A stretch of 64,000 nucleotides of DNA, taken from the NCBI GenBank assembly GCA_001898645.1, contig MKUQ01000037.1, forward strand, positions 1 to 64,000. Direction: 5' to 3'. A model generated the notes under the pieces. That model was not told the origin of the DNA. It made no database searches and was given only the letters and a program-made list of their open reading frames with translations. This stretch comes from Burkholderiales bacterium 70-64 (GTDB taxonomy: Bacteria; Pseudomonadota; Gammaproteobacteria; Burkholderiales; Burkholderiaceae_E). The translations under genes and the position numbers were made by a program. Positions 31,114 to 58,559 of this stretch are shown here, in pieces (position 1 is the stretch's first letter; every line of letters starts with the position of its first letter).

Positions 31114-34100
31114 CTATCGGAAATCCCGGCTCTTCACCGCCAGCTCCCCCAGCAGCGCGCTGTGATCGAGGATGCGCCGTGCCACCAGGTGCCTGACCTG
31201 GCCGCCGGTGTCGGTATCGCGCTGCCAGGTGCCGCAGACCGTCATCAGCTGCGAGCCGATCACCTCGCGGCGATGGCGCTCGAACACGCCGGGCCAGACG
31301 ATGACGTTGACGGCGCCGGTTTCGTCTTCCAGCGTGACGAAGATCGTGCCCTTGGCGGTGCCGGGCCGCTGGCGGTGCGTCACCAGCCCGCTGGCGCGTG
31401 CCGGCCGGCCGTCGGGCAGGGCGGCGAGCGCCGCGGCCGTGGAGACGCGCAGGCGCGCCAGCCGCGCGCGCAGCAGCGCGAGCGGATGCCGCCCCATCGG
31501 GATACCGAGGCTGCGATAGTCGGCGATGATCTCGCGCCCCTCGGGGGGCGCCGGTATCGGCGTGGGCGGCTCGTCGAAGCGCGCCTCGTGCAGCAGCGGC
31601 GGCAGCGGCTGGATCGCCGCAACCTCCCAGTGCGCCTGCGCGCGATGCCCGGCCAGCCGGCGCAGCGCGCCGGCCTGGGCCAGCGCTCGCAGCTCGCGTG
31701 CGTCGATCCGCGCCTGTCGTGCGAGATCCTCGACGCCGTCGAACGCGGGTGCCTCGCCGCGCTCGCGCCGGCGCGCGGCGCGTGCCTCGAGCAGCCGCAG
31801 CGCGCCCGCTTCCGAAAACCCGCGTACCCGGTTCAGACCGAGCCGCACCGCGGGCTGCGCGCGCCGGTCGATCGCACTGCCGTCGGCCGGCGCGACCCAG
31901 GGCGGAAGAACGCCGGTTTCCTCCAGCGTGCAGTCCCACTCGCTCGTCAGCGCGTCGACGCCGCGCACCTCGACGCCGTGCTCGCGCGCGTCGCGCACCA
32001 GCTGCGCCGGCGCATAGAAGCCCATCGGCTGGCTGTTCAGCAGCGCGGCCAGGAACGTCGCCGGCTCGTGCCGCTTGATCCACGCCGACACGTAGACCAG
32101 CAGCGCGAAGCTCGCCGCGTGGCTCTCCGGAAAGCCGTATTCGCCGAAGCCCTGGATCTGCCTGAAGATCGCCTCGGCGAACTCGCGCTGGTAGCCGTTC
32201 GCCAGCATGCCGTCGACCAGGCGCCGCTCGAACGGTTCGAGCCCACCCTTGCGCCGCCAGGCCGCCATGGCGCGGCGCAGCGCGTCGGCCTCGCCGCCGG
32301 TGAAGTCGGCCGCGATCATCGCGATCTGCATCACCTGCTCCTGGAAGATCGGCACGCCCAGCGTGCGCTCGAGCGCGGGGCGGATCTCGTCACGCGGATA
32401 GTGGACCGGCTCCAGGCCCATGCGGCGGCGCAGGTAGGGATGCACCATGCCGCCCTGGATCGGGCCGGGGCGCACGATCGCGACCTCGACCACCAGGTCG
32501 TAGTACTCCTTCGGGCGCAGCCGCGGCAGCATGCTCATCTGCGCGCGCGACTCGACCTGGAACACGCCGATGGTGTCGGCGCGCGAGATCATCTCGTAGG
32601 TGGCCTCATCGCCCTCCGGGATGTCCTGCATGCGAAAGGGCTGGCCGCGCCGCTGCCCGATCATGTCGAGCGCGCGGCGGATCGCGCTCAGCATGCCGAG
32701 TGCGAGCACGTCGACCTTGAGCAGGCCGAGCGCGTCGAGGTCGTCCTTGTCCCATTCGATGACGCTGCGCTCGGGCATCGCCGCATTCTCGACCGGCACC
32801 AGTCGCGTGAGCTTGTCGCGCGCGATCACGAAGCCTCCGGTGTGCTGCGACAGATGGCGCGGAAAGCCACGCAGCGTGCCGGCCAGCTCGAGCCATTGCC
32901 GCGCGACGCGCGAGTCGGGATCGAAGCCGGCCTCGCGCAGGCGCTCGGACTGCATGCCGGCGTCCCACCACTGGTGCGAGCGCGCGAGCTGCTCGATGCG
33001 CTGCGCGTCGATGCCCAGCGCGCGCCCGACGTCGCGCAGCGCCGAGCGTGAACGGTAGGTGATCACCGTGGCGGCGAGCGCGGCGCGATGGCGGCCGTAC
33101 TTGTCGTACAGGTACCGGATCACTTCCTCGCGGCGCTGGTGCTCGAAGTCGACGTCGATGTCCGGAGGCTCGTTGCGTTCGCGGCTGATGAAGCGCTCGA
33201 ACAGTACGCGGGTGCGTGTCGGGTCGACCTCGGTGATGCCCAGGCAGTAGCAGACCGCCGAGTTCGCCGCCGAGCCGCGTCCCTGGCACAGGATGCCGTG
33301 CGAGCGCGCATGGCGCACGATGTCGGCGACGGTGAGGAAGTACGGCTCGAATTTCATCTCGGCGATGATCGCCAGCTCGCGCTCGACCTGCGCGGCGACC
33401 GGCGCGGGCAGGCCGGCCGGATAGCGCTCCGGCACGCCGTCGAAGACCAGCTTGCGCAGCCAGCTCGCCGGCGTGTGGCCGGCCGGCACGATCTCCTCGG
33501 GGTACTCGTAGCGCAGCTCGTCGAGCGAGAAGCGGCAGCGCGCAGCGACTTCGAGCGTCTGCTCGAGCAGCGCCGGCGGGTAGAGCTGCCCCAGGCGCAG
33601 CCGGCTGCGCAGGTGCTGCTCGGCGTTGGGCGCCAGCGCGTAGCCCAGCCCGGCGAGCGGCGCGCGCAGCCGGATCGCGGTGAGCGTGTCCTGCAGCGTC
33701 TTGCGCGAGCGCACGTGGCACAGCACGTCGCCGACGGCGACCCGCGGCAGGCCGGTGGCGGCGGCCACGCGCTGCGTGCGCTCGAGCAGCGCGGCGTCGT
33801 GGCCGCGCATCAGCAGCGGCACGCCGAGCCAGCAGCGCTGCTCGAAGCGCTCGCGCAGCCAGCGCGCGTTGTACAGCAGCTGCGCGTACGGCGAGTCCGG
33901 CGGCGGCGCGGCCGAATCAGCGGCCGGGTCGACGGCCACCGCGGGCGAGGGCACCAGCAGCGCGAGGCAGTCGTCGAGCCCGCCGGCCAGGTCTTCGGCG
34001 AGCAGCCGGTAGCGGCCCTTGGCGGCGCGCATGCGGGCACGCGTGATCAGCTCGGAGAGGTTGCCGTAGCCGTTGCGCGAGCAGGCGATCAGCGCCAGCC

Positions 34101-34338
34101 GCGAGTCGTCGCCGAAGGACTCGCGCAGGCCGAACTGGGCGCCGATCAGCAGCGGCAGCTTCGCGGCGCGTGCGCCCAGGTGCGCGCGCACCACGCCGGC
34201 CAGCGAGCATTTGTCGGTGATCGCCAGTGCCGCGTAGCCGAGCTTTTGCGCGCGCTCGGCCAGCTCCTGGGGGTGAGAGGCACCGTGCAGGAACGAGAAG
34301 TTGCTCGCACAGAGCAGCTCGGCATAGTCGGGGAGCAT
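31114..34338 (-). CDS. dnaE2: Error-prone DNA polymerase III alpha-like subunit (DnaE2/ImuC)
   Basis: SOS-induced translesion polymerase that works with ImuA and ImuB. The 1,074-aa C-family polymerase has an N-terminal PHP domain and the catalytic aspartates in PDIDVDF at residues 393, 395 and 397. The HhH and OB-fold regions lie toward the C-terminus. It is shorter than replicative DnaE and lacks the C-terminal tau-binding tail, as is typical of DnaE2. The start codon at 34338 is 8 bases from a perfect LexA box. It is unusual that imuA and imuB are not adjacent but 21 kb away. Confidence 0.95.
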   Translation of the reverse strand: MLPDYAELLCASNFSFLHGASHPQELAERAQKLGYAALAITDKCSLAGVVRAHLGARAAKLPLLIGAQFGLRESFGDDSRLALIACSRNGYGNLSELITRARMRAAKGRYRLLAEDLAGGLDDCLALLVPSPAVAVDPAADSAAPPPDSPYAQLLYNARWLRERFEQRCWLGVPLLMRGHDAALLERTQRVAAATGLPRVAVGDVLCHVRSRKTLQDTLTAIRLRAPLAGLGYALAPNAEQHLRSRLRLGQLYPPALLEQTLEVAARCRFSLDELRYEYPEEIVPAGHTPASWLRKLVFDGVPERYPAGLPAPVAAQVERELAIIAEMKFEPYFLTVADIVRHARSHGILCQGRGSAANSAVCYCLGITEVDPTRTRVLFERFISRERNEPPDIDVDFEHQRREEVIRYLYDKYGRHRAALAATVITYRSRSALRDVGRALGIDAQRIEQLARSHQWWDAGMQSERLREAGFDPDSRVARQWLELAGTLRGFPRHLSQHTGGFVIARDKLTRLVPVENAAMPERSVIEWDKDDLDALGLLKVDVLALGMLSAIRRALDMIGQRRGQPFRMQDIPEGDEATYEMISRADTIGVFQVESRAQMSMLPRLRPKEYYDLVVEVAIVRPGPIQGGMVHPYLRRRMGLEPVHYPRDEIRPALERTLGVPIFQEQVMQIAMIAADFTGGEADALRRAMAAWRRKGGLEPFERRLVDGMLANGYQREFAEAIFRQIQGFGEYGFPESHAASFALLVYVSAWIKRHEPATFLAALLNSQPMGFYAPAQLVRDAREHGVEVRGVDALTSEWDCTLEETGVLPPWVAPADGSAIDRRAQPAVRLGLNRVRGFSEAGALRLLEARAARRRERGEAPAFDGVEDLARQARIDARELRALAQAGALRRLAGHRAQAHWEVAAIQPLPPLLHEARFDEPPTPIPAPPEGREIIADYRSLGIPMGRHPLALLRARLARLRVSTAAALAALPDGRPARASGLVTHRQRPGTAKGTIFVTLEDETGAVNVIVWPGVFERHRREVIGSQLMTVCGTWQRDTDTGGQVRHLVARRILDHSALLGELAVKSRDFR

Positions 34339-35835: not shown

Positions 35836-37152
35836 ATGCGCAATGCCCAGATGCTGGTCGTCCATGCGGCCGAGCTGATTCCCTGCGCCGGCCCGGTGCA
35901 GGGAATCCGCGCAGCAGCCCTGGACCGCCTGGAAGCCATCGCCGACGGCGCACTGGCCATCGTCGACGGCCGCATCGCGGAGGTGGGCACGAGCGCCTCG
36001 ATTCTCTCGCGCTATGAGGCGCCGGAGGTCATCGATGCCACCGGCTGCCTGGTGTCGCCGGCCTTCGTCGATTCCCATTCGCACCTGCTGCACGGCGGCA
36101 CCCGCCACGAGGAGTACGACGCCAAGGTCACCGGGCGCCGCGAGGTGCCGCTCGACGGCGGCATCCGCTACACCGTGCGCAAGACCCGCGAAGCGTCCGA
36201 CGAGGCCCTGCTCGCGCGGGCCCGCGCCGACCTGGACGCGATGCTGGTGCACGGCACGGCCACGCTCGAGGCCAAGACCGGCTACGGCCTGGAGCGCGAG
36301 CAGGAGATGCGCCTGCTGCGCCTGACCGCCGGGCTGCGCCACACCGTGCAGGTGGTGCCGACCTACCTGCCGCTGCATGTCCTGCCCGACGGCTACGGCG
36401 ATCGCCGCGCCGAGTACATCGCCGAGGCGATCGCCGCCCTGCCGCAGGCCGCCCGGCTCGCCGTCTACTGCGACGTGTCCTGCGATCCCCTGTGCTTCAC
36501 CTTCGAGGAATGCCTCGAGGTGGGCGAGGCGGCTCGCGCGCTGGGCATGCGCATCCGCGTGCACGCCGACCAGAATGGCGACGGCAGCGGCGCGCTGCTG
36601 GCAGCGCGACTGCGCGCCTCGGCGGCCGATCACCTCGACTACGCGAACGACGCGGGCCTGCGCGCCATGGCCGAGGCGGGGACCGTGGCCACCCTGCTGC
36701 CGGGGGTGACGCTGCACATGTGCGAGATGACGCCGCGCGTCGCGGGCGCCGCGCTGCGGCCGGCCGAGAAGCCGTTCATGCCCCTGCTGGCGCGCCGCGC
36801 GATCGATGCCGGCGCGGTGGTGTCGCTGTCGACCGACTACAACCCGGGCAGCTGCCCGACGCCGTCGATGCAGATGGTGATGCAGCTGGCCGCGCGCCTG
36901 TACCGGCTGAGCTACGCGCAGATCTGGAACATGTGCACGCTCAATGCCGCGCGCGCGCTCGACCTGTCGCACGATCGCGGCAGCCTCGAGCCGGGCAAGC
37001 GCGCCGATGTCCTGCTGTGGTCGGTGCCGACCCACGGGCTTGCCATCAACCGTTTCGGCGTCAACCAGGTCGATACGGTGATCGTCGAGGGGCGCGTCGT
37101 CGTGCGCGAAGGGCGCCTGCTGTCTTCTTCCACTGTCGGAGTCAACCGATGA
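35830..37152 (+). CDS. hutI: Imidazolonepropionase-like amidohydrolase (copy A)
   Basis: Predicted to open the imidazolone ring to N-formimidoylglutamate. The 440-aa amidohydrolase has the metal motif HSH in FVDSHSHLLHGG, GGIRYTVRKTREAS as in known HutI, and further metal-ligand segments RVHADQNG, SAADHLDYAN and LSTDYNPGS. It is closer to textbook HutI than copy B, but DSHSH and VYCDVSCDP differ from the usual DCHTH and FCE. It heads the operon; its stop overlaps the importer gene as ATGA. The ATG at 35830 is chosen, with 35836 as an alternative. The substrate is inferred from neighbours. Confidence 0.78.
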   Translation: MEMRNAQMLVVHAAELIPCAGPVQGIRAAALDRLEAIADGALAIVDGRIAEVGTSASILSRYEAPEVIDATGCLVSPAFVDSHSHLLHGGTRHEEYDAKVTGRREVPLDGGIRYTVRKTREASDEALLARARADLDAMLVHGTATLEAKTGYGLEREQEMRLLRLTAGLRHTVQVVPTYLPLHVLPDGYGDRRAEYIAEAIAALPQAARLAVYCDVSCDPLCFTFEECLEVGEAARALGMRIRVHADQNGDGSGALLAARLRASAADHLDYANDAGLRAMAEAGTVATLLPGVTLHMCEMTPRVAGAALRPAEKPFMPLLARRAIDAGAVVSLSTDYNPGSCPTPSMQMVMQLAARLYRLSYAQIWNMCTLNAARALDLSHDRGSLEPGKRADVLLWSVPTHGLAINRFGVNQVDTVIVEGRVVVREGRLLSSSTVGVNR

Positions 37153-43240: not shown

Positions 43241-44029
43241 ATGGAGCCGTTCCGATTCCGCGCCGGCACGACGCCGCTGCTGGTGTCGATGCCGCACCGC
43301 GGCACCTGGCTGCCGGAAGCGCTGGCGCGCCGGATGACGCCGGCGGCCCTCGCGCTGCCCGACACCGACTGGCACCTCGAGCGCCTGTACGATTTCCTCG
43401 ACGAGATCGGCGCCTCGGTGCTCGAGGCGACCCACTCGCGCTACGTGATCGACCTGAACCGTCCGCCGGACGACGCCAGCCTGTATCCCGGCCGCAGCAC
43501 CACCGGCCTGGTGCCGATCGACACCTTCGCCGGCGAGCCGGTCTATCGCCCCGGCGAGACGCCGCAGGAGAGCGAGACCGCCGAGCGCATCGAGCGCTGC
43601 TGGAAACCCTACCACGACCGCCTCGCGCAGGCGCTGGCCGAGCTGCACGCGCGCCACGGCGTCGCCCTGCTGTGGGACGCGCATTCGATCCGCTCGGTGG
43701 TGCCGCGCTTCTTCGAGGGCCGGCTGCCCGACCTCAACCTCGGCACCGCCGACGGGCGCTCCTGCGACCCGGCGCTCGCCGCGCGGCTGGCGGCCGTCGC
43801 CGGCGCCGCGGCGGGCTACAGCTCGGTGCTCGACGGGCGCTTCAAGGGCGGCTACATCACGCGCCGCTACGGGCGCCCGCAGGAGGGCGTGCACGCGGTG
43901 CAGCTCGAGCTGGCGCTGTGCGCCTACATGGACGACGATCCGCCGTTTGCCTTCCGCGAGCCGCTGGCGGCGCGGCTGCGGCCGCACCTGCGGGCGATGC
44001 TCGAGGCCATGCTCGGGTTCGCCCGCTGA
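43241..44029 (+). CDS. hutG: N-formylglutamate deformylase
   Basis: Last step of the HutF/HutG route: N-formylglutamate to glutamate and formate. The 262-aa HutG-family hydrolase has SMPHRGTWLPE near the start, RYVIDLNRPPDDASLYPGR and LLWDAHSIRS. GAGGGAG precedes the ATG. It lies between hutU-A and hutF-A. There is only one hutG in the window, so both hut operons may share it or the copy B product may not need it. Confidence 0.92.
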   Translation: MEPFRFRAGTTPLLVSMPHRGTWLPEALARRMTPAALALPDTDWHLERLYDFLDEIGASVLEATHSRYVIDLNRPPDDASLYPGRSTTGLVPIDTFAGEPVYRPGETPQESETAERIERCWKPYHDRLAQALAELHARHGVALLWDAHSIRSVVPRFFEGRLPDLNLGTADGRSCDPALAARLAAVAGAAAGYSSVLDGRFKGGYITRRYGRPQEGVHAVQLELALCAYMDDDPPFAFREPLAARLRPHLRAMLEAMLGFAR

Positions 44030-44066: not shown

Positions 44067-45467
44067 ATGACGCGCCACTGCTTCGCCGCCCGCGCCCTCC
44101 TGCCCGCCGGCTGGGCGCGCAACGTGCGCATCGCGATCGATGCGGCGGGCGGTTTCGCCGACGTCGCCGCGGACACGGCCGGCCCGCGTCCCGGCGACGA
44201 GGTGCTCCCCGGGCCGGTGCTGCCGGGCATGGCGAGCCTGCATTCGCACGCCTTCCAGCGCGCCATGGCGGGAATGGCCGAGACGCGCGGCCCGGGCAGC
44301 GACGACTTCTGGAGCTGGCGCGAGCTGATGTACCGCTTCGTCGCGCGGCTCACCCCCGAGGCCGCGTTCGCGATCGCGCGCCACCTCTACGTGGAGATGC
44401 TGCGCAACGGCTACACCGCGGTGGCCGAGTTCCACTACGTCCATCGCCGGCCCGACGGCACCGCCTATGCGGCGCCCGCCGAGCTGCTGCTGCGCCACCT
44501 CGCGGCGGCGCGCGAGGCCGGGATCGCGATCACGCTGCTGCCGGTGCTGTATCGCTGGTCGGACTTCGGCGCCCGGCCGCTGCAGCCGCGCCAGGCCCGC
44601 TTCGGCAACGATCCGGCCGCGATCCTGGCGATGGTGGAAGCGGCGCGCCGGGCGGCGGCCGGCGATGCCGACGTGCGCGTCGGCGTGGCGCCCCATTCGC
44701 TGCGCGCGGTCGATGCGGCATCGCTGCGCGAGCTGGTCGCCGGCCTCGAGGCGATCGATGCGAGCGCGCCGATCCACATCCACGTGGCCGAGCAGACGAA
44801 GGAGGTCGACGACAGCGTGGCCGCGAGCGGATCGCGGCCGGTCGAGTGGCTGCTGTCGAACCAGCCCGTCGACCGGCGCTGGTGCCTGGTCCACGCGACG
44901 CACATGACGGCGGACGAGACCGCGGCGCTGGCGCGCAGCGGCGCGGTGGCCGGCCTGTGCCCTAGCACCGAGGCCAACCTGGGCGACGGCATCTTCCCGC
45001 TGCCGGACTATCGCGCCGCCGGAGGCCGCTGGGGCATCGGCGGCGACAGCCACGTGTCGCGCGATCCGGCCGAGGAGCTGCGCCTGCTCGAATACGGCCA
45101 GCGCCTGGCGCTGCGCCGCCGTAACCTGGTGGCGGGCGGCGCGGTCGGCTCGCCGGGCAGCGACGCGGTCGGCACCACGCTGTGGACCGAGGCGGCCGCC
45201 GGCGGCGCACAGGCGCTCGGCCGCCCGATGGGTGCGCTCGCCGCGGGCCTGCGCGCCGACCTGGTCGAGCTCGACCCCGGCGCCGCCGACCTGCATGCGC
45301 GCGAGGACGACGCGCTGGCCAACGCGCTGGTGTTCTCGGGCACGCCCGGGCTGGTGCGCAACGTGATGGTCGGCGGCCGCTGGGTGGTGCGCGAGCGACG
45401 CCATCGTCTCGACGACGAGGGGGGCGAGGACGCCTACCGCCAGGCGTTGCGCATGCTGCTCGCCTAG
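44067..45467 (+). CDS. hutF: Formimidoylglutamate deiminase (copy A)
   Basis: Releases ammonia from N-formimidoylglutamate to give N-formylglutamate. The 466-aa amidohydrolase has the metal motif HSH in SLHSHAFQRAMAG, AEFHYVH, HIHVAEQTKEVDD, LVHATHM and IGGDSHVS, all matching classical HutF including STEANLGDGIFP. The ATG at 44067 lacks a clear ribosome binding site; a GTG at 44037 with GAGG upstream would add 10 residues. Its stop TAG shares a CTAG palindrome with the stop of the opposing copy B gene. Confidence 0.93.
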   Translation: MTRHCFAARALLPAGWARNVRIAIDAAGGFADVAADTAGPRPGDEVLPGPVLPGMASLHSHAFQRAMAGMAETRGPGSDDFWSWRELMYRFVARLTPEAAFAIARHLYVEMLRNGYTAVAEFHYVHRRPDGTAYAAPAELLLRHLAAAREAGIAITLLPVLYRWSDFGARPLQPRQARFGNDPAAILAMVEAARRAAAGDADVRVGVAPHSLRAVDAASLRELVAGLEAIDASAPIHIHVAEQTKEVDDSVAASGSRPVEWLLSNQPVDRRWCLVHATHMTADETAALARSGAVAGLCPSTEANLGDGIFPLPDYRAAGGRWGIGGDSHVSRDPAEELRLLEYGQRLALRRRNLVAGGAVGSPGSDAVGTTLWTEAAAGGAQALGRPMGALAAGLRADLVELDPGAADLHAREDDALANALVFSGTPGLVRNVMVGGRWVVRERRHRLDDEGGEDAYRQALRMLLA

Positions 45468-46858
45468 TCGAACAGTGTGTGCGCCGCCTCGGCGTAGGCG
45501 CGCACGATCGATTCCTGCCGCAGGTGCACGCCCTCGCGCACCTGCCAGCGGCCGTCCACCATCACGTCGCGCACCGCGTCGGCGGCGCCCGAGAGCAGCC
45601 AGGCATCGAGGATGGCCTCGGTGTCGTGGCCGGCCAGGGTCGGCGAGTGCGGATCGAGCACGACGACGTCGGCGGGGCTGCCCACCGACAGGGCAGGGGC
45701 CGGGTCGCCCAGCGCGCGCATCCCGCGCAGCGCCGAGGCGAACAGCTGCTCGCCGCTGCGCAGGCGGCGCGGGTCGCCGTGCTCCGCATCGGCCAGCACG
45801 TTGCGCCGGCCGCGGCTCAGGCGCTGCCCGCACTCGAGCATGCGCAGCTCGGCGGCCACGCCCGAGGCGTAGTGGCTGTCGGTGCCGATCGCCCAGGCGC
45901 CGCCTTCGCGGTGGTATTCCACCAGCGGGAACAGTCCGTCTCCGAGCATCGCCTCGGTCATCGGGCACAGGCCGGCGAGCGCGCCGCTGCGCGCCAGGCC
46001 GCTGCGCTCGCCTTCGTCGAGGTGGGTCGCATGGACCAGGGTCCAGCCGGCGTCGAGCGGCGCGTGCCCGAGCAGCCATTGCACCGGCCGGGCGCCCAGG
46101 CCGGCCAGGCATTCCTCGACCTCGTGCCGGGTCTCCGAGACGTGGATGTGGATCGGCAGGTGCGGCTCGATCGATGCCGCGCCGGCCACGGCCGCCGAGA
46201 GCTCCGCGGGCGCCACCGCGCGCAGGCTGTGCAGGGCCAGCCCCACGGCGGCGCCGTGCTCGGCGCGGCGCGCGTGCAGCGAGCCGGCCAGGCGCAGGAA
46301 CTCGTCGACGTCCGCGTGCACGAAGCGCGCCTGCTCGGGCAGCGGTGTCCTGCCGATGCCGGCGTGCGCATACAGGGTCGGCAGCACGGTCAGGCCGATG
46401 CCGGCCCGGCGCGCGCCCGCGGCCAGCCGCCAGGCCATCTCGGCCGGCTCGGCGTAGCGGGCGCCGCCGGGCGCGTGATGCAGGTAGTGGAACTCGGCCA
46501 CGCGGGTGAAGCCGTGCAGCAGCATCTCCATGTAGGTGAACGCCGCCACGTCCTCGTAGTGGCGCGGCTCGATGCGCTGCGCCAGCGCGTACATGCGCTG
46601 GCGCCAGGTCCAGAGGTTGTCCTCGTGGCCGCGCCCGCCGATCTCGCAGCGGCCGGCGAGCAGGCGCTGGAAGGCATGCGAATGCACGTTGGGCATGCCT
46701 GGCACCGCGTGGCCTGCGACCTGCTCGTCGACGCGCTGCTGCGGAGGCGGCGTCGCACCGATCGCGGCGATGCGGCCGGCGGCATCGACGTCCAGGTAGC
46801 CGGGCGAGAGCCAGCCGTCGGGCGTCCACAGGTGTTCGAAGGCGATGCAGCGCGACAT
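45464..46858 (-). CDS. Formimidoylglutamate deiminase-like protein (divergent copy B)
   Basis: A 464-aa amidohydrolase of the HutF family, last gene of the minus-strand operon. Metal-site segments are kept: NVHSHAFQRLLAG, AEFHYLHH, HIHVSETRHEVEE, LVHATHL and GTDSHYA. It differs from copy A at substrate-side positions (VAEQTK to VSETRH, STEANLG to MTEAMLG, SHVS to SHYA) and throughout the C-terminal third. The start is 2 bases after the HutI-like stop, so translation is coupled. The reaction is probably deimination or a related hydrolysis of a pathway-specific intermediate; not proven. Confidence 0.8.
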   Translation of the reverse strand: MSRCIAFEHLWTPDGWLSPGYLDVDAAGRIAAIGATPPPQQRVDEQVAGHAVPGMPNVHSHAFQRLLAGRCEIGGRGHEDNLWTWRQRMYALAQRIEPRHYEDVAAFTYMEMLLHGFTRVAEFHYLHHAPGGARYAEPAEMAWRLAAGARRAGIGLTVLPTLYAHAGIGRTPLPEQARFVHADVDEFLRLAGSLHARRAEHGAAVGLALHSLRAVAPAELSAAVAGAASIEPHLPIHIHVSETRHEVEECLAGLGARPVQWLLGHAPLDAGWTLVHATHLDEGERSGLARSGALAGLCPMTEAMLGDGLFPLVEYHREGGAWAIGTDSHYASGVAAELRMLECGQRLSRGRRNVLADAEHGDPRRLRSGEQLFASALRGMRALGDPAPALSVGSPADVVVLDPHSPTLAGHDTEAILDAWLLSGAADAVRDVMVDGRWQVREGVHLRQESIVRAYAEAAHTLFD

Positions 46859-46860
46859 GC

Positions 46861-48129
46861 TCAGGCTCCCGGGTCGGCGTGGACGACCGCGCCGTCCTTG
46901 ATCACCGTGCGTGCCCGGCCGCGGCCGAGCCGGTAGGCGAGGTCCTCGAAGGTCGGCAGCGCGAAGATCGCCAGGTCGGCCTGCTTGCCGGGCTCGATCG
47001 AACCCACGCGGTCCTCGAGCGCGAGCGCGCGCGCGCCGCCCCAGGTCGCCGCGCGCAGCGCCTGCGCGGGGGCGAAGCCGTACTGCCGACAGGCGAGCTG
47101 GATCACGAAGGGCATCGATTCGAGCCAGCAGCCGGGGCACATGTCGGTGGCCAGCGCCACCTCGACGCCCAGCTCGAGCAGGCGGCGTGCGCGCACCGGC
47201 CGCGCGTGCCCAACCGCGAAGTCGAGCCCCGGCATGACGACGCCGGCCACGCCGGCCTCGCGCAGCGAGGCCATGTCTTCGTCGGTCGCGTGGTTCAGGT
47301 GGTCGGCCGACACCGCCCCGAGCTCGGCCGCGAGCGCGCAGCCGCCGATGCGCGAGTAGGCGTCGGTATGGATCTTCGCCTTCAGGCCGTGCTCGAGGCC
47401 GGCCTGCAGGATGCGGCGCGACTCCTCGACGGTGTAGTAGCCGTCGTCGCAGTACACGTCGTTGAACCGCGCCAGGCCGCGGCGCGCGGCCTCGGGGATC
47501 ATCTCCTCGACGATCTCCCGGATGTAGGCCTCGCGGGAGCGGTCCTCGGGGAATTCGTGCGCGCCCAGCAGCGTGCTCACGATGCCCACCGGCTGGCTGC
47601 GCGCCAGCGCGGCGTTGACCTCGAGCATGCGCAGCTCCTGCGCCGTCGACAGGCCGTAGCCCGATTTGGCTTCGACGGTGGTGGTGCCGCAGGCGAGCAT
47701 GTGCCGCAGGCGCTCGTGCGCCTGCACGAGCAGCTCCTCGCTGCTCGCCTGGCGCAGCAGGCGCGCCGTGCCGGAGATGCCCACCGGCACGCCGCGGGCC
47801 GCCAGCGAGGCGGCCGTCTCGCCCTGCACCCGGCCGGCATACTCGAGCACGCGGGAGCCGGCGAAGACCAGGTGGGTGTGGCAGTCGACGAAGCCCGGCA
47901 CGACGATGCCGCCGGCGGCGTCGACCACCTGCGCCGACGCGGTGTCGACCGCGGCCTCGACCTCGGCCGCGCTGCCGGCGGCGAGGATACGATCGCCGCC
48001 GATCGCCACCACCCCGCGCTCGATGCGCCCGACCAGGTCGGGCGCCCGCGCGGCGCAGGTGAGCACCTGCGCTGCGCCGGTGACCAGCAGCGAGGCGCGT
48101 GGCCGGACTGGACCCTGCTCAGAGGCCAT
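46861..48129 (-). CDS. Imidazolonepropionase-like amidohydrolase (divergent copy B)
   Basis: A 422-aa HutI-family protein. It has the HTH metal motif in DCHTHLVFAG, then VEAKSGYGL, SADHLNHAT and ATDMCPGCWLES. Compared with copy A and classical HutI, the glycine-rich GGGI/STVRATREAS stretch becomes RGVPVGISGTARLL, the HADQ region becomes HTDAYSRIGG and TDxNPGS becomes TDMCPGC. It overlaps the urocanase-like gene by 11 bases and precedes the HutF-like gene by 2 bases. Probably a ring-opening hydrolase for a urocanate-type product; exact substrate unknown. Confidence 0.8.
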   Translation of the reverse strand: MASEQGPVRPRASLLVTGAAQVLTCAARAPDLVGRIERGVVAIGGDRILAAGSAAEVEAAVDTASAQVVDAAGGIVVPGFVDCHTHLVFAGSRVLEYAGRVQGETAASLAARGVPVGISGTARLLRQASSEELLVQAHERLRHMLACGTTTVEAKSGYGLSTAQELRMLEVNAALARSQPVGIVSTLLGAHEFPEDRSREAYIREIVEEMIPEAARRGLARFNDVYCDDGYYTVEESRRILQAGLEHGLKAKIHTDAYSRIGGCALAAELGAVSADHLNHATDEDMASLREAGVAGVVMPGLDFAVGHARPVRARRLLELGVEVALATDMCPGCWLESMPFVIQLACRQYGFAPAQALRAATWGGARALALEDRVGSIEPGKQADLAIFALPTFEDLAYRLGRGRARTVIKDGAVVHADPGA

Positions 48130-49819
48130 GGCCGGGCCCGAAGGTGGCCTCGGGCGTCCACCACAGCGGCACCTTGACGCCGTCGCGCGCGAAGCGCTCG
48201 GCCGCGGCCTTGCGCGCGATGTCGTAGCCGGCCTGTGCGTGGCGCACCACGCCGATGCCCGAGTCGGTGGTCAGGCATGCCGCCAGCCTCACGTCGGCCT
48301 CCGTGCTGCCGTCGGCGATCATCGTGACGCCGGTGTGCACCGCCTCGCCCATCGAGTAGTTCTCCTGGATGGCGACCAGGTCCGCGCCGCCGGCGCAGTT
48401 GAGCAACGCGTTCAGGTACGGCCAGTCGGAGATCAGGTCGCTGCCGTCCTTCATGTTCTCGGATTCGAAGGTCGGGTTGACGATCGAGCCGGAATCCAGG
48501 TTGTCGCGCGAGAAGGCGACCGGCCCTGACAGGACGCCGTCCTTCACCATCTGGTTCACGCGCAGCCCGAAGGCCTTGCGCTGGCCGAAGCCGAGATAGC
48601 AGATGCGCGCGGGCAGCCCCTCGATCGGGATGTGCTCGCGCGCCAGCGTGATCCAGCGCGTGACCAGCTCGTCGTCGGCGAACATCTCGAGCACCGTGTC
48701 GTCGAGCTTCTTCAGGTCCTCGGGGTCGCGCGACAGGCAGATCCAGCGGAACGGGCCGCGGCCCTCGCAGAACAGCGGTCGGATGTAGGCGGCGACGAAG
48801 CCCGGGATGCGCATCGCCTCGGCCTGCGGCATGCCGGCGTCGCGCGCTTCCTTGCGCAGGCTGTTGCCGTACTCGAACACCTGCGCCCCCTTGTCGAGGA
48901 AGGTGTTCATCAGCTTCAGGTGGCGGATCATCGCCTGGCCGGCACGCTTCAGGTAGCCGTCGCGGTCGCGCTGGCGCAGCGCCCGCGCTTCGTCGACGCT
49001 CAGCCCGGTGGGCACGTAGGCGAGGGGGTCGTGCGCCGGCGTCATGTCGGTGATGATGTCGGGCGTGAAGCCGGAGGCCAGCGCGCGCTCGAGCACGTCG
49101 ACCGCGTTGCCGACCAGGGCGATGCCCAGCGGCTTGCCCGCCTGCGCGGCTTCGCGCGCCATGCGCACCGCCTCGTCGAAGTCGGCGGTCATGGCGTCGC
49201 AGTAGCCGACTTCGAGGCGGCGCCGGATCACCGCCTCGTCGACGTCGGCGCAGATGCACACGCCGCCGTGCATGCTCATGGCGCGGGTCTGGTTGCCGCC
49301 CATGCCGCCCATGCCCGCGGTGAGCAGGATGCGGCCCTTGAGCGAATTGCCGAAGTGCAGGCGGGCGATCGAGCCCAGCGTCTCGAAGGTGCCCTGGATC
49401 ACGCCCTGGGTGCCGATGTACTCCCACGGCGCGGCGGTGTACTGCGCGAACATGGTCAGGTTCTTCGCCTGCAGGTCGTAGAACACCGGCCAGGTGGCCT
49501 TCATGATGTTGGTCGTGGCCATCACCACGCGTGGCGCGAGCAGGTTGGTGCGGAAGATCGCCACCGGCATGCCCGACTGCACGACCAGGGTCTCGTCGTT
49601 CTCGAGCTCCTTCAGCGACTTGACGATCGCGTGGTACGACTCCCAGTTGCGGGCGCACTTGCCGATGCCGCCGTAGATGACGAGATCTTCGGGCCGTTCG
49701 GCGTTCTCCATGTTGTTCTCGAGCATGCGCAGGATCGACTCCTGCTTCCAGCCCTTGCAGCGCAGCGTGCTGCCGCCCTGGGCCTTGACGCTGTAGAGGA
49801 TCTCGGGTTGCGCGGTCAT
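48119..49819 (-). CDS. Urocanate hydratase-family protein (divergent copy B)
   Basis: First gene of the minus-strand operon, 566 aa. It is a clear urocanase-family member (VIYGGIGKCARNW, IRPLFCEGRGPFRW, GLPARICY with the conserved cysteine C407). Key substrate and cofactor loops differ from the canonical copy A in this window: [12 protein letters not shown] becomes [20 protein letters not shown] becomes DMTPAHDP, and the loop [15 protein letters not shown] becomes QENYSMGEAVHTG. The ATG at 49819 has GGAGAA upstream. It is transcribed from an operator-controlled promoter shared with a HutC-type repressor. It could be a second urocanase clade or a hydratase for a modified urocanate. Confidence 0.82.
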   Translation of the reverse strand: MTAQPEILYSVKAQGGSTLRCKGWKQESILRMLENNMENAERPEDLVIYGGIGKCARNWESYHAIVKSLKELENDETLVVQSGMPVAIFRTNLLAPRVVMATTNIMKATWPVFYDLQAKNLTMFAQYTAAPWEYIGTQGVIQGTFETLGSIARLHFGNSLKGRILLTAGMGGMGGNQTRAMSMHGGVCICADVDEAVIRRRLEVGYCDAMTADFDEAVRMAREAAQAGKPLGIALVGNAVDVLERALASGFTPDIITDMTPAHDPLAYVPTGLSVDEARALRQRDRDGYLKRAGQAMIRHLKLMNTFLDKGAQVFEYGNSLRKEARDAGMPQAEAMRIPGFVAAYIRPLFCEGRGPFRWICLSRDPEDLKKLDDTVLEMFADDELVTRWITLAREHIPIEGLPARICYLGFGQRKAFGLRVNQMVKDGVLSGPVAFSRDNLDSGSIVNPTFESENMKDGSDLISDWPYLNALLNCAGGADLVAIQENYSMGEAVHTGVTMIADGSTEADVRLAACLTTDSGIGVVRHAQAGYDIARKAAAERFARDGVKVPLWWTPEATFGPGHGL

Positions 49820-49872
49820 GAAACGTTCTCCGGGTGAAGGTCGATGAAGCGGTCTGGTCGGATTGTTCTAGT

Positions 49873-49884
49873 TTGTTTATACAA
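49873..49884. promoter_or_regulatory. HutC-type operator 1 (TTGT-TTAT-ACAA)
   Basis: A perfect inverted repeat TTGT-N4-ACAA, resembling known HutC/GntR-HutC operators, lies 54 bases upstream of the urocanase-like start. It covers the predicted transcription start of the minus-strand operon, so repressor binding would block initiation. Confidence 0.75.
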
Positions 49885-49886
49885 AT

Positions 49887-49916
49887 AGCATATACCTGAT
49901 CGGTCTCGATCGTCAA
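49887..49916 (-). promoter_or_regulatory. Sigma-70 promoter of the minus-strand hut-like operon
   Basis: On the minus strand TTGACG (49916-49911) and TATGCT (49892-49887) are separated by 18 bases, a good sigma-70 match. The expected start near 49880 lies inside operator 1. Confidence 0.65.
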
Positions 49917-50007
49917 TCGAGTTGTGCCCTTGCCGGAGGTGACACCGTTTCCGCAGGGTGCCATGCAGCCCCCGGAGGGGCGCTCACAGCGGGACAAGCT
50001 GTAGCTA

Positions 50008-50019
50008 TTGTGTAGACAA
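50008..50019. promoter_or_regulatory. HutC-type operator 2 (TTGT-GTAG-ACAA)
   Basis: The second TTGT-N4-ACAA inverted repeat in the same intergenic region lies upstream of the HutC-type gene, directly after a TAGCTA hexamer. It suggests that the repressor also controls its own gene. Confidence 0.7.
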
Positions 50020-50100
50020 ACAGGGCCAAGTAGGATGGCGGCTGCGCATCTGCGCCCCCTGCGGGGACCGCCTGCCGCTCCCGATTTCCATGCCCGCGAA

Positions 50101-50850
50101 ATGCCCACCAAAGCGAACGACTTCCACCAGGACGCGCCGCCGCTCTACGAGCGCGTGAAGCAGTACATCGTCGACCGGATCATGTCCGGGGAGTGGCCGC
50201 AGGGGCATCGCGTCCCGACCGAGCAGGAACTGGTCGGCATGCTCGGCATCAGCCGCATGACGGTGCACCGGGCCCTGCGCGAGCTGATGAACGAAGGCAT
50301 GGTCCGCCGCCGTCCCGGGGCCGGCACCTTCGTGCACAACGAACGCCCGCGCCTCGATCTGGTGCAGGTGCGCGACATCGCCGAGGAGATCGCGCTGCGC
50401 GGGCATGCCCATGCCAGCGAGGTGCATCTGCTGCGCAGGGAGAAGGCCGACCACGTGGCCAGCGAGGCGCTCGGCATCCCTCTGCGGGCGCCTTTCTTCC
50501 ATTCGCTGATCGTGCACCTGGAGAACCAGTGGCCGGTCCAGCTCGAGGAGCGCTACGTCAACCCCGCGGCCGCACCCGCCTACCTGGAGCAGGATTTCAC
50601 CCGCTCCACGACCTACGCCTACCTCATGACCACCGGCCCGCTGGATCGCGTCGAGCACGTCGTCGAGGCCATCCGCCCGTCGCCGCGAACCTGCGAGCTG
50701 CTCAAGATCTCCCCGGAGGAGCCGTGCCTGGTGCTGCACCGGCGCACCTGGTCGCGCGGACAGGTGGTCTCGCGCGCCTGGCTGACGCATCCGGGCAGCC
50801 GCTACCGGCTCGGCGCCGAGTTCGGGCGAGCCGTTCCGGAGGAGGCCTGA
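50101..50850 (+). CDS. hutC: HutC-type GntR-family repressor
   Basis: A 249-aa regulator with an N-terminal GntR winged helix (about 10-80: PLYERVKQYIVDRI, SRMTVHRALRELMNEGMVRR) and a C-terminal UTRA effector domain (about 95-240). In the HutC subfamily the effector is urocanate. It is divergent from the urocanase-like operon, with two matching operators between. The ATG at 50101 gives the family's usual length; ATG 50035 and TTG 50008 lie upstream, the latter inside operator 2. It may repress the divergent operon and itself. Confidence 0.9.
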   Translation: MPTKANDFHQDAPPLYERVKQYIVDRIMSGEWPQGHRVPTEQELVGMLGISRMTVHRALRELMNEGMVRRRPGAGTFVHNERPRLDLVQVRDIAEEIALRGHAHASEVHLLRREKADHVASEALGIPLRAPFFHSLIVHLENQWPVQLEERYVNPAAAPAYLEQDFTRSTTYAYLMTTGPLDRVEHVVEAIRPSPRTCELLKISPEEPCLVLHRRTWSRGQVVSRAWLTHPGSRYRLGAEFGRAVPEEA

Positions 50851-55413: not shown

Positions 55414-55535
55414 GAACGTGCGAGGGAATCGTAGCGAGCGGTCCGAGGTCGTGCCGAGAAGCGCAGCCGTACCAGGGTACGGCGAGCATCACAGGCGCGA
55501 GATCGGGCCGCGCAGTAGATTCCCGCGCGCATTCA
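55414..55535. repeat. 122-base palindromic element overlapping the imuB stop
   Basis: An imperfect palindrome centred at 55474/55475. The innermost 8-bp stem GCCGTACC/GGTACGGC (55466-55473 and 55476-55483) is perfect, and the outer arms (55414-55430 and 55518-55535) share GGGAATC/GATTCCC and most flanking bases. The left outer arm is identical over 17 bases to the arm of the repeat inside imuB at 55828, and the right arm matches that repeat's interior. The element fills the space between the TraR/DksA gene and imuB and includes the imuB TGA. Confidence 0.8.
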
Positions 55536-57128
55536 CCCGAAGCGTCCGTGCACGAACCATCCTCCGCGGCCGCCCTCGGGCGCCAGCCGTTCGCGGTAGA
55601 TCCAGTACAGCGCGTGCGTTTCGTCCTCGGCGACGAAGTAGTCGCGCTGCACCAGGGCGGCGTCCCACCAGCCGCCTTCGATGCGTTCCGGACCTGCCAG
55701 CAGCGTGAGCGGCGTGCGCCAGCAGGGGCGGTTGTCGCGCTCGCCGATGGCGAGGGGTTCGTGCAGCAGCCATAGCGGCCGGGGCAGGCCGGCGACGGGG
55801 ATACCCGCGGCGACGGGCACTTCGGCTGAACGTGCGAGGGAATCTACTGCGCGGCCCGAGGTCGCTACGATTCCTTCACACGCTCCGTGGACAACGGCCG
55901 CCCGCGCTCCGGGATGGACGCCGGCCGCTTCGATCCGGTACGCGGCCTCGGGGCGGTGATCGGCGGCCAGGGACAGGCGCTGGATGCCGCGCGCACCCAG
56001 CCGCGCCTGCAGCCGCTCGATCAGCCGGGCCAGGTTCTCGCGCGCGGCGCCGGGCGCCGGCAGCAGCGACGCGCTGGCCGCGGGCTGCGCCAGCACCTCC
56101 TCGCAGCGCAGGCGCAGCGCATGCACCGGTGCCGGCAGGCGGGTGACGGCGAGCGTCTCGCGCAGCAGCGTGAGCAGCCGTTCGGGGTCACGGCTCGGAC
56201 CGGCCAGCCGGACCGTCAGCAGCGTGTCCTCGCGCGCATCGCGCCGGTCGTGGATGGCGTGCAGCACGAAGGTGCGCAGCGCGCCGTGGCGCGCCGCCAG
56301 CCATGCGGCGAGCGGGTCCACCAGGCGCCGGGCGGCGAACAGCAGCGCCTCGGCGTGATCGACCCGTGCCAGCAGCTCGATCTCCGCCTCGAAGCGGGCG
56401 GGCGCCTCGAACCAGCGGCGCGATTCGGGCTGCTGCCCGCGGGCGCGATCGAGCTCGTCGAGCAGCGCGGGCCCGCAGCGGCGCGCCAGGCCGGCGCGCG
56501 GCAGCGCGAGCAGGTCGCCGACGCGATGCGCGCCGATGGCATCGAGCGTTTCGCGTTGCGCGCGGCTGCGTGCGAGCAGGCGGCTAGGCAGGGCTTCCAG
56601 GGTGGCCGGCAGGTCGGCGGCGGTGCTGGACAGGCCGTCGCGATGGCGCGCGAACAGCCACGCTGCCGCGGCGGTGGGCGCCGTGCCGATGCGCGCGGTG
56701 TAGCCGAGCGCCCGCAGCCCTTGGCGCAGGCGTGCCAGCAGCGCCTCGGGTCCGCCGAAGTAGCGCAGGCTCGCGGCGACCTCCAGCAGCAGGCCGCAGG
56801 GAGCGGGGGTGTCGTCGTGCTCGCCGAAGGGCAGGTCGGCCTGCAGGCTGACCGAGGGGGTGAACTGCAGGGCCCAGGCCGCCAGCCGTTCGAGCGCGGC
56901 CTGCTCGCGTGCCGCATCGCGCTCGCGCAGCAGCAGGGCGGGGGCGAGCGCCAGCGCGGCCGCCCGCTTCATGCCGGCGACGATGCCCAGCGCCCGCGCG
57001 CCCGCGTCGGCATCGAGAATGCACAGCCGGTCGCAGATCGCCAGCGGCGCGCCGTCGCCGGGCGCGAGCGCGCCGCAGCGGGCGATCTGCAGCGCCAATC
57101 GGTCGAAGAAGAGGCCCAGCCACCACAC
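55533..57128 (-). CDS. imuB: ImuB, Y-family polymerase-like mutasome subunit
   Basis: An inactive Y-family polymerase relative that links DnaE2 to the sliding clamp during SOS mutagenesis. The 531-aa product from the GTG at 57128 starts WWLGLFFDRLALQ as usual for ImuB. No ATG is available nearby and no strong ribosome binding site is seen. The C-terminal part has RPLWLLHEP and GGWWDAALVQRDYFVAEDE. Residues about 415-434 are encoded by a palindromic repeat and look like an insertion between the conserved blocks. It lies 32 bases after imuA. Confidence 0.9.
   Translation of the reverse strand: MWWLGLFFDRLALQIARCGALAPGDGAPLAICDRLCILDADAGARALGIVAGMKRAAALALAPALLLRERDAAREQAALERLAAWALQFTPSVSLQADLPFGEHDDTPAPCGLLLEVAASLRYFGGPEALLARLRQGLRALGYTARIGTAPTAAAAWLFARHRDGLSSTAADLPATLEALPSRLLARSRAQRETLDAIGAHRVGDLLALPRAGLARRCGPALLDELDRARGQQPESRRWFEAPARFEAEIELLARVDHAEALLFAARRLVDPLAAWLAARHGALRTFVLHAIHDRRDAREDTLLTVRLAGPSRDPERLLTLLRETLAVTRLPAPVHALRLRCEEVLAQPAASASLLPAPGAARENLARLIERLQARLGARGIQRLSLAADHRPEAAYRIEAAGVHPGARAAVVHGACEGIVATSGRAVDSLARSAEVPVAAGIPVAGLPRPLWLLHEPLAIGERDNRPCWRTPLTLLAGPERIEGGWWDAALVQRDYFVAEDETHALYWIYRERLAPEGGRGGWFVHGRFG
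55828..55885. repeat. Palindromic repeat inside the imuB reading frame
   Basis: Arms 55828-55844 and 55869-55885 pair at 14 of 17 positions around a 24-base centre. The left arm is identical to the left outer arm of the 122-base element 400 bases away. It is read through in frame and adds about 20 residues (IVATSGRAVDSLARSAE on the minus strand) before the conserved RPLWLL motif, comparable in style to Rickettsia palindromic elements. Confidence 0.75.
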
Positions 57129-57160
57129 TGCGGCGACGACCGTGGTGGTATCGATACGCC

Positions 57161-57886
57161 CTAATGCAGCGCACCGGCGTGCGATGCATCGGGGCGGATG
57201 CGGCTCGCATGCATCGGCGGGCGCTGCGCCGGGTCTGCCAGCGGGCTCGCGCGCAGCCGGATGGCCGTGACCGGCTGCGGCAGGTCGAGCAGGAGCGGAT
57301 CGGCCATGAGCGGCCCGCGCCGCTTGAGGATCTGCACCGACAGGCGCTCGTCGGGGCGAGGCAGCAGCAGCAGGCGCAGCGGGGCCGGCGAGGCCTCGAA
57401 CTGGGCCGCCAGCTGCCTGAACAGGAACACCGGACCACCGGCCGACTGGGCGGCCAGCTGCATGCGGCGCAGGTGCTCGGGGCGGGTTTTCTCCTGCGGC
57501 AGCCAGGCAAGCAGGGCGCCGAACGAGGCGCTGCCGAGCGCCTGCTCGACGGCCCACAGGCGATCGGCGGCGTTGGGGGCCTGCACCACCAGCAGGTAGT
57601 CGAGGTCGATGCCGTGGCTGGCCAGCGCCGGGGCGTAGGGCACGTGCGGCGGCGCCAGCAGGACGACGAAGCGGCGCTCGCGCGTGAGCGGGCGCAGCAG
57701 CGGCACCAGCAGGCGCAGCTCGCCGATGCCCGGCTCGCGGCCGATCAGCTCGGTGAGCATCCCGGCCGGCCAGCCCGCGCCGGGCAGCTCGGCATCGAGG
57801 GCGGGAAAGCCGCTCGAGAGGGCGGTGACGGCGGCGTGGCCGAGCTGGCTGGCGCGCCAGACGGCAGCGGGCAGCGCGGACGGCAT
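57161..57886 (-). CDS. imuA: ImuA, RecA-like SOS mutagenesis subunit
   Basis: A 241-aa RecA/SulA-like protein of the ImuA family, which helps the ImuB-DnaE2 polymerase. Recognisable are the start VWRASQLGHAAVTALSSGFPALDAELPGAGWPAG, TELIGREPGIGELRLL, and RLWAVEQALGS. The open frame continues upstream into lexA, but the ATG at 57886 gives the standard N-terminus. It lies 28 bases after lexA, so it is transcribed with it under LexA control. Confidence 0.9.
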   Translation of the reverse strand: MPSALPAAVWRASQLGHAAVTALSSGFPALDAELPGAGWPAGMLTELIGREPGIGELRLLVPLLRPLTRERRFVVLLAPPHVPYAPALASHGIDLDYLLVVQAPNAADRLWAVEQALGSASFGALLAWLPQEKTRPEHLRRMQLAAQSAGGPVFLFRQLAAQFEASPAPLRLLLLPRPDERLSVQILKRRGPLMADPLLLDLPQPVTAIRLRASPLADPAQRPPMHASRIRPDASHAGALH

Positions 57887-57914
57887 GGCGGTTTTCCTGG
57901 GGAGCCGCGCGCCG

Positions 57915-58559
57915 TCAGAGCGCCTTGCCGGTGCGCAGCAGGCCGACGGCGATGCCCTCGAGGGCGAACGGATCGCTGCGGGCATCGACGACGATGGGCG
58001 CGAAATCGGGGTTCTCGGGCAACAGCTCGACCGTGTGGCCCTTGCGGCGCCAGCGCTTGACGGTGACCTCGTCGCCGACGCGGGCCACGACGATCTGGCC
58101 GTTGCGGGCTTCCCGAGCGCGGCGCACCGCGAGCAGGTCGCCGTCGAAGATGCCGGCGTCGCGCATGCTCATGCCGCGCACCTTCAGGAGGTAATCGGGC
58201 TTGTCGTCGAACAGGTTCGGATCGATGGCGTAGCTGGCCTCGATGTGCTCCTGGGCGAGGATCGGGCTGCCGGCGGCGACCCGACCGACCAGCGGCAGGC
58301 TGAGGGCGAGCTGCACCGCGCGCGGCTGATCGCTGGGGGAGTCGGGCAGCAGCTTGAGCCGGATGCCGCGCGAGGTGCCCGAGGCCAGCTCGATGACGCC
58401 CTTGCGCGCCAGCGCCTTGAGGTGCTCCTCGGCGGCATTGGGGGAGCGAAAGCCCAGCTGCTGGGCGATTTCGGCCCGGGTGGGCGGAAAGCCGGTGTCG
58501 GCGATGTGCTGCCTGATCAGCGCCAGGATCTGCTGCTGGCGCGAGGTGAGGTCCCGCAT
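57915..58559 (-). CDS. lexA: LexA repressor
   Basis: SOS repressor. The 214-aa product has an N-terminal winged helix (1-70, [26 protein letters not shown]), the self-cleavage site A96-G97 in RVAAGSP, and the catalytic pair S131 (VRGMSM) and K168 (VTVKRW). These are each 12 residues later than in E. coli. It heads the lexA-imuA-imuB operon, with a LexA box 38 bases upstream of its start, and probably controls dnaE2 at 34338 too. Confidence 0.97.

Follow-up and report, generated by a model that had tools for sequence, protein, structure and literature searches.

A second hut-type operon in Burkholderiales bacterium 70-64 with a predicted role in N-tau-methylurocanate breakdown

Introduction

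Why would a bacterium carry, side by side, two divergent sets of genes for the same three consecutive steps of histidine breakdown? This question is raised by a 64,000-nucleotide stretch from Burkholderiales bacterium 70-64 (assembly GCA_001898645.1, contig MKUQ01000037.1, positions 1 to 64,000), hereafter the window, in which a plus-strand operon (A) and a minus-strand operon (B) both encode a urocanase (HutU), an imidazolonepropionase (HutI) and a formiminoglutamate deiminase (HutF). An earlier note, made from the sequence alone, had singled out the B operon as a candidate for an undescribed system acting on a modified imidazole, for example thiourocanate from ergothioneine or a methylated urocanate. 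From the comparisons described below, it is considered probable that the B operon supplies the closing steps of a histidine-type N-tau-methylhistidine pathway, leading from N-tau-methylurocanate to N-formylglutamate. Actin, myosin and muscle dipeptides commonly leave behind ring-methylated histidine.

The open reading frame positions confirmed three tightly coupled minus-strand genes, with an overlap of 11 bases between hutU-B and hutI-B (48119-48129) and a gap of 2 bases between hutI-B and hutF-B (46859-46860). The divergent HutC-type regulator gene described in the note was likewise confirmed, by its position and by a TIGR02018 score of 290.6 bits (cut-off 220). The three enzymes exceeded the cut-offs of the general NCBIfam models, HutU-B scoring 676.1 bits against TIGR01228 (hutU, cut-off 375), HutI-B 383.1 bits against TIGR01224 (hutI, cut-off 298.15) and HutF-B 509.7 bits against TIGR02022 (hutF, cut-off 413.05). 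Identity between the A and B copies is 45% for HutU, 37% for HutI and 46% for HutF.

Parallel divergence of the three B enzymes

By scanning genomes for relatives of HutU-B, 75 loci with HutU proteins 67-83% identical were kept from the best 80 of 158 matches. They come from Bacilli, Clostridia, Syntrophomonadaceae, Alphaproteobacteria, Desulfobacterota, Spirochaetes, Chloroflexota and others. The 11 HutU-B rows cluster as one clade (support 100/100) in a tree built from 25 dereplicated urocanases, apart from the canonical enzymes, among them HutU-A, and from thiourocanate and S-methylthiourocanate hydratase-like proteins; the nearest kin of HutU-B in this tree are two alphaproteobacteria and one uncultured proteobacterium. 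Furthermore, 62 diagnostic columns separate the two types, a column being counted when at least 95% conserved in 20 canonical HutU rows and differently so in 85 B rows (83 different sequences). The canonical Arg455 is replaced by Phe and His444 by Asn in all 85 B rows (P. putida numbering, by alignment), and the canonical HHGGG loop corresponds to a shortened QENYS, the combination of Arg455, His444 and HHGGG thus being absent from HutU-B. Two pairs of deposited structures, 1uwk/1uwl and 8q9u/8q9v, show an Ala/Arg difference at the Arg455 position, which suggests that this residue was chosen for mutation by the depositors on account of its functional importance.

The partner enzymes form clades of their own as well. 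HutI-B was found in 72 of the 75 HutU-B loci, the remaining three being short stretches (L059, 3.2 kb; L067, 8.1 kb; L088, 13.5 kb), and it constitutes one clade of 31 rows (support 100/100) that co-occurs with HutU-B. It keeps the HTH and ATD motifs, which we take to be metal ligands. In addition, HutF-B forms one clade of 7 rows (6 different; support 100/100), every row stemming from a HutU-B genome. Two of its six diagnostic columns adjoin a conserved Glu, where HVAEQ has become HVSET in 7/7 rows, a change that would be as expected if the leaving amine carried a methyl group. The parallel divergence of all three enzymes into co-occurring clades, as the note had put forward, was therefore borne out. 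Its description of the plus-strand copies as canonical held for HutU-A and HutF-A, which group with canonical enzymes in the trees, and failed for HutI-A (35836-37152), which belongs to a third HutI clade of 6 rows (5 different; support 100/100) apart from ordinary HutI. In this connection, a HutI-A-type operon with an S-methylthiourocanate hydratase-like HutU was observed in loci L195 (genome G288) and L074, scoring 866.4 and 863.6 bits against a cut-off of 880, and the HutI-A-type operon may stem from S-methylergothioneine breakdown. L074, from a betaproteobacterial metagenome-assembled genome, carries HutU-B and HutI-B next to such an A operon.

Altered ring site of the linked lyases

Inspection of the neighbourhoods for a linked lyase, as the note had suggested, revealed an MIO-type lyase frame in 60 of the 75 HutU-B loci and in 47 of the 51 full-length ones. 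The residue at the ring site of these lyases was read at the column of His83 in P. putida histidine ammonia-lyase (HAL), a numbering checked against structure 1gkm. Among 52 motif-detected copies linked to HutU-B, this column holds D in 42, C in 6, N in 3, S in 1 and H in none, compared with H in 18/18 copies linked to canonical HutU and in 26/37 other copies. Counted as distinct genes, His83 is present in 0/50 HutU-B-linked, 12/12 canonical-linked and 24/29 other lyases, the five non-His lyases of the last group all coming from HutU-B genomes. When the motif was loosened, bringing in shorter frames and missed lyases, 57 of 58 lyases in HutU-B loci were non-His; the sole His belongs to a second, partial lyase in L049. 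The linked lyases of L084, L091 and L099, overlooked by the first motif, carry D.

A study on the HAL of G. kaustophilus (PMC11432326) reports complete loss of activity upon mutation of H82, as of three other residues, and lists N-tau-methylhistidine as a HAL substrate with reference to the 2022 work on its bacterial degradation. H82 is likely the equivalent of H83. Together with the changes in HutU-B, the altered ring site of the relatives' linked lyases supports the note's idea of a modified imidazole as substrate.

These data bear on the simplest alternative, in which the B operon is a plain duplicate hut operon acting on urocanate. With the canonical hut pathway (HutH-HutU-HutI-HutF-HutG, with HutC), the B operon has in common its enzyme families, its regulator family and an operator-like motif, and the general hutU, hutI and hutF cut-offs are exceeded, all of which a duplicate would account for. 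It differs, however, in that its ring-site residues are changed, no HutH was found in the genome assembly, and linked lyases in relatives lack the ring-site His. Grouping of the B copies within ordinary histidine-pathway clades had been named in the note as the mark of a duplicate; all three B enzymes fall outside such clades. A plain duplicate was rejected by trees and residues, and is considered very unlikely.

Nature and position of the ring modification

The enzymes that end the pathway provide further information on the substrate. HutF occurs in 7 of the 75 HutU-B loci, six times as the B type and once, in L074, as the A type, and HutG adjoins HutF in L027, L028 and L030. FTCD_C and FtcD_N were found in 18/75 and 16/75 loci, respectively. 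Genes for M20-family hydrolases (e.g. L060 14672-15853) were noticed mainly in Bacilli HutU-B loci, where the hydrolase may substitute for HutG/HutF. Three interchangeable pathway endings are thereby suggested, namely HutF/HutG, FtcD/cyclodeaminase and an M20 hydrolase. Since HutF and FtcD handle a C1 formimino unit, ring carbon 2 of the substrate would be unsubstituted, carrying hydrogen, which speaks against thio-substrates.

Thiourocanate or S-methylthiourocanate from ergothioneine breakdown is brought up by the NCBIfam results, as S-methylthiourocanate hydratase is the top score of HutU-B (685.7 bits against NF058531). Like HutU-B, the enzymes of NF058530 and NF058531 are urocanase superfamily variants for modified urocanates, and two rows of thiourocanate hydratase also lack Arg455. 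HutU-B, however, lies in another clade and stays below both cut-offs, 880 for NF058531 and 930 for thiourocanate hydratase (NF058530, 631.8 bits), whereas a same-genus control protein (L004) passes the latter with 999.3 bits. In addition, sulfur at carbon 2 would clash with the formimino modules, and for the three linked lyases tried, ergothionase 6s7j scored far under histidine lyases, so that an ergothionase-type linked lyase was rejected. On NCBIfam cut-offs, tree and pathway logic, thio-substrates were discarded as extremely unlikely, and the note's first suggestion, thiourocanate, is not supported; its second, a methylated urocanate, gave the best fit to ring-site changes and formimino modules. 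The control protein itself (L004 1483-3138, genome G071) is a thiourocanate hydratase over the cut-off, in a genome with one PF00221 lyase. The hutU model TIGR01228 is broad, as thiourocanate hydratase passes it too (712.6 bits). HutU-B-type proteins likewise pass this general cut-off, and annotation can therefore assign the wrong substrate.

Among ring modifications that leave carbon 2 free, N-tau-methyl is the most likely one. A divergent HutF in an operon that lacks a HutG is consistent with a substituent on tau, the nitrogen released by HutF; the genome was not screened for further HutG copies. The changed ring site and the formimino product do not by themselves fix which nitrogen is substituted, and N-pi-methylurocanate (from anserine) or a larger N-substituent could be proposed instead. 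With an N-pi-methyl group, however, the nitrogen met by the deiminase would be a normal imino nitrogen, and an N-formyl-N-methylglutamate deformylase would be required at the end, whereas it is HutF that diverges in the B operon and HutG that is missing from it. Such other substrates are regarded as unlikely. MTTB-family matches near HutU-B loci were too scarce and weak to build on (MttB1 in 3/75, MttB2 in 5/75, identities from 24%). Some alphaproteobacterial HutU-B loci (L027 1753-7817) contain an aminotransferase gene and, named by eye, an FMN-type hydroxyacid dehydrogenase-like gene and a TRAP transporter, which perhaps feed the pathway from a hydroxy or keto acid.

For the N-tau-methyl substrate, the following scheme is proposed. 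Methylurocanate would be taken up, not made, and HutU-B would hydrate N-tau-methylurocanate. HutI-B would then open the methyl-imidazolone ring to N-(N-methylformimino)glutamate, from which HutF-B would release methylamine, leaving N-formylglutamate. The HutG of the neighbouring A operon, presumably common to both branches, would convert the latter to glutamate and formate, and HutC would repress the B operon through two palindromes.

Missing lyase and origin of the operon

The absence of a lyase from the window, as stated in the note, was borne out and extends to the genome assembly (4.72 Mb, 63 contigs, 98.28% complete), in which no PF00221 match was found. Both urocanases of this genome lie inside the window. 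Within the family (74 genomes), a urocanase match was obtained in 21 genomes and a lyase match in 17; four have a urocanase match and no lyase, namely the present genome and G034, G035 and G036, the last three with partial urocanase matches only. Furthermore, 21 HutU-B genomes were tested for PF00221, comprising the present one, ten others and ten chosen because the first motif had shown no lyase in the locus. Four of them (G000, G081, G475 and G476) gave no match, while G079 and G080 have His-type lyases only and G477 a His-type lyase and one further fragment. The lyase-less state accordingly recurs in unrelated HutU-B genomes.

HutU-B itself is isolated among its relatives. The other 73 family genomes yielded no HutU-B (best full-length identity 48%), and searches of 399 genomes of an order sample (E <= 1e-180) and 398 of a phylum sample (E <= 1e-190; listed rows mainly of the same order) recovered it from the present genome only. 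A horizontal gain of HutU-B appears likely from this distribution.

Two accounts of the missing lyase were considered. If the absence is real, the operon may use imported or scavenged methylurocanate: under the control of HutC, the cell would take up N-methylurocanate from other organisms and convert it to glutamate, formate and methylamine, while the neighbouring operon does likewise for urocanate. This lyase-free scavenging is put forward tentatively, as a possibility; were it functional, methylurocanate would be exchanged between organisms as a nutrient. Alternatively, the genes were captured without a lyase, or the lyase was lost or missed, it being possible that it lies in an assembly gap of the draft genomes, and the operon is idle or incomplete. 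This would be compatible with the N-tau-methyl substrate, and the 63 contigs, the incompleteness of the assembly and the probable acquisition indicated by the absence of HutU-B from the other family genomes and both samples are in its favour. Three intact frames, their tight spacing and two perfect palindromes speak against an idle operon, and G081, G475 and G476 without PF00221 or G079 and G080 with His-type lyases only, mostly drafts too, repeat the pattern. An idle or incomplete operon is considered rather doubtful.

Relation to the known pathway

A paper on bacterial N-tau-methylhistidine degradation was published in 2022 by Beliaeva, Atac and Seebeck (doi 10.1021/acschembio.2c00437). The pathway reportedly resembles that of histidine and has a lyase, a hydratase and a ring hydrolase of its own. 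The organism was presumably Bacillus terra(e), now Siminovitchia terrae, and a match of its pathway to the HutU-B cluster is likely. The S. terrae genome (synonym Bacillus terrae) contains a HutU-B cluster with the sole D-type lyase among its three lyases, and HutU-B and HutI-B of the window fall in the same clades as the enzymes of that cluster. The designation of an undescribed system was accordingly too strong, given the 2022 publication. No paper on a methylurocanate hydratase was found among the texts covered by the literature search. Compared with the N-tau-methylhistidine pathway, the window operon stands apart in being proteobacterial, ended by a HutF-type deiminase, placed beside a HutC gene and devoid of a detected lyase. 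The HutU-B clade, combined with the ring-site signature, offers a sequence test for the pathway across many phyla. A further S. terrae cluster (L216 6145-19881) holds two urocanases, HutI, an arginase-family protein, an acyl-CoA dehydrogenase, a class III CoA-transferase and ETF genes, and perhaps serves the oxidation of imidazolepropionate to urocanate.

Several observations weigh against an N-tau-methylhistidine pathway. A dedicated MIO lyase whose ring site is altered, as such a pathway would call for, is not found in this genome; with no PF00221 match in the assembly, methylhistidine could not serve there as the starting point. The ring-site argument is drawn from lyases of relatives. In addition, two of the four urocanases of S. 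terrae lie in another cluster, and the tie of the 2022 enzymes to the HutU-B clade is a presumed one. Two HutI-B relatives carry Asn in place of the conserved Asp of the ATD motif (L081 6973-8226, GTN; L074 11574-12977, ATN), and 41 of the 75 HutU-B loci have an M20 hydrolase and no HutF. A type III glutamine synthetase for methylamine assimilation was not detected over the cut-off in this genome; such a gene in 5/16 genomes is uninformative. Finally, the HutU-B-linked lyases are not one clade, and the tree led to rejection of a single co-evolving lyase clade. As the linked lyase of L031 (S at the His83 column) sits among His-type proteobacterial lyases, the ring-site His was probably lost more than once, and repeated loss would itself point to a common selective pressure, namely an altered ring.

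Regulation and gene neighbourhood

The motif TTGTNTANACAA occurs twice in the 64 kb, with 0.03 occurrences expected, and both matches lie between hutU-B and the hutC start (Table 1). HutC is predicted to bind these two palindromes. The motif was also found near hutU in canonical family loci (L005, L009, L013, L014 and L015) and in HutU-B loci (L029 and L030). Altogether it is present in 11 of 218 loci; two of these duplicate the window, and two others, L055 and L071, show no evident tie. A divergent HutC homologue lies at most 0.3 kb from HutU-B in L027, L028, L030, L031 and L093, and 1.6-1.7 kb away in L038 and L041. One clade uniting HutC-B with other B-linked HutC proteins was not recovered with resolution in the HutC tree. 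The hutC gene also has a longer frame, with its start at 50008.

Table 1. Coordinates and predicted roles of B operon features and associated genes in the window.
Feature	Position	Strand	Predicted identity	Basis
HutU-B	48119..49819	-	Predicted N-tau-methylurocanate hydratase, urocanase family	Clade, diagnostic columns, scores below thio cut-offs
HutI-B	46861..48129	-	Predicted methyl-imidazolonepropionase	NCBIfam hutI score, clade
HutF-B	45464..46858	-	Predicted (N-methyl)formiminoglutamate deiminase	NCBIfam hutF score, clade
HutC	50101..50850	+	HutC-type GntR regulator, divergent from B operon	HutC TIGR02018 score
HutG	43241..44029	+	N-formylglutamate deformylase, A operon	hutG 359.2 bits, cut-off 278.75
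Palindrome TTGTTTATACAA	49873..49884		Predicted HutC operator near hutU-B start	Match to TTGTNTANACAA
Palindrome TTGTGTAGACAA	50008..50019		Predicted HutC operator upstream of hutC	Match to TTGTNTANACAA

The plus-strand A operon comprises HutI-A, a branched-chain-type ABC transporter (named by eye), HutU-A, HutG and HutF-A, and an IclR-type regulator and HutD are encoded on the minus strand beside it. DnaE2-like (31114-34338) and ImuB/ImuA/LexA-like (55533-58559) genes, recognized by eye, lie on the same strand and flank the 21 kb hut/ugp block, a possible insertion. At the start of the window, an integrase-like gene (103-1122, by eye) adjoins a tRNA-Val gene, as is seen where an integrated element ends.

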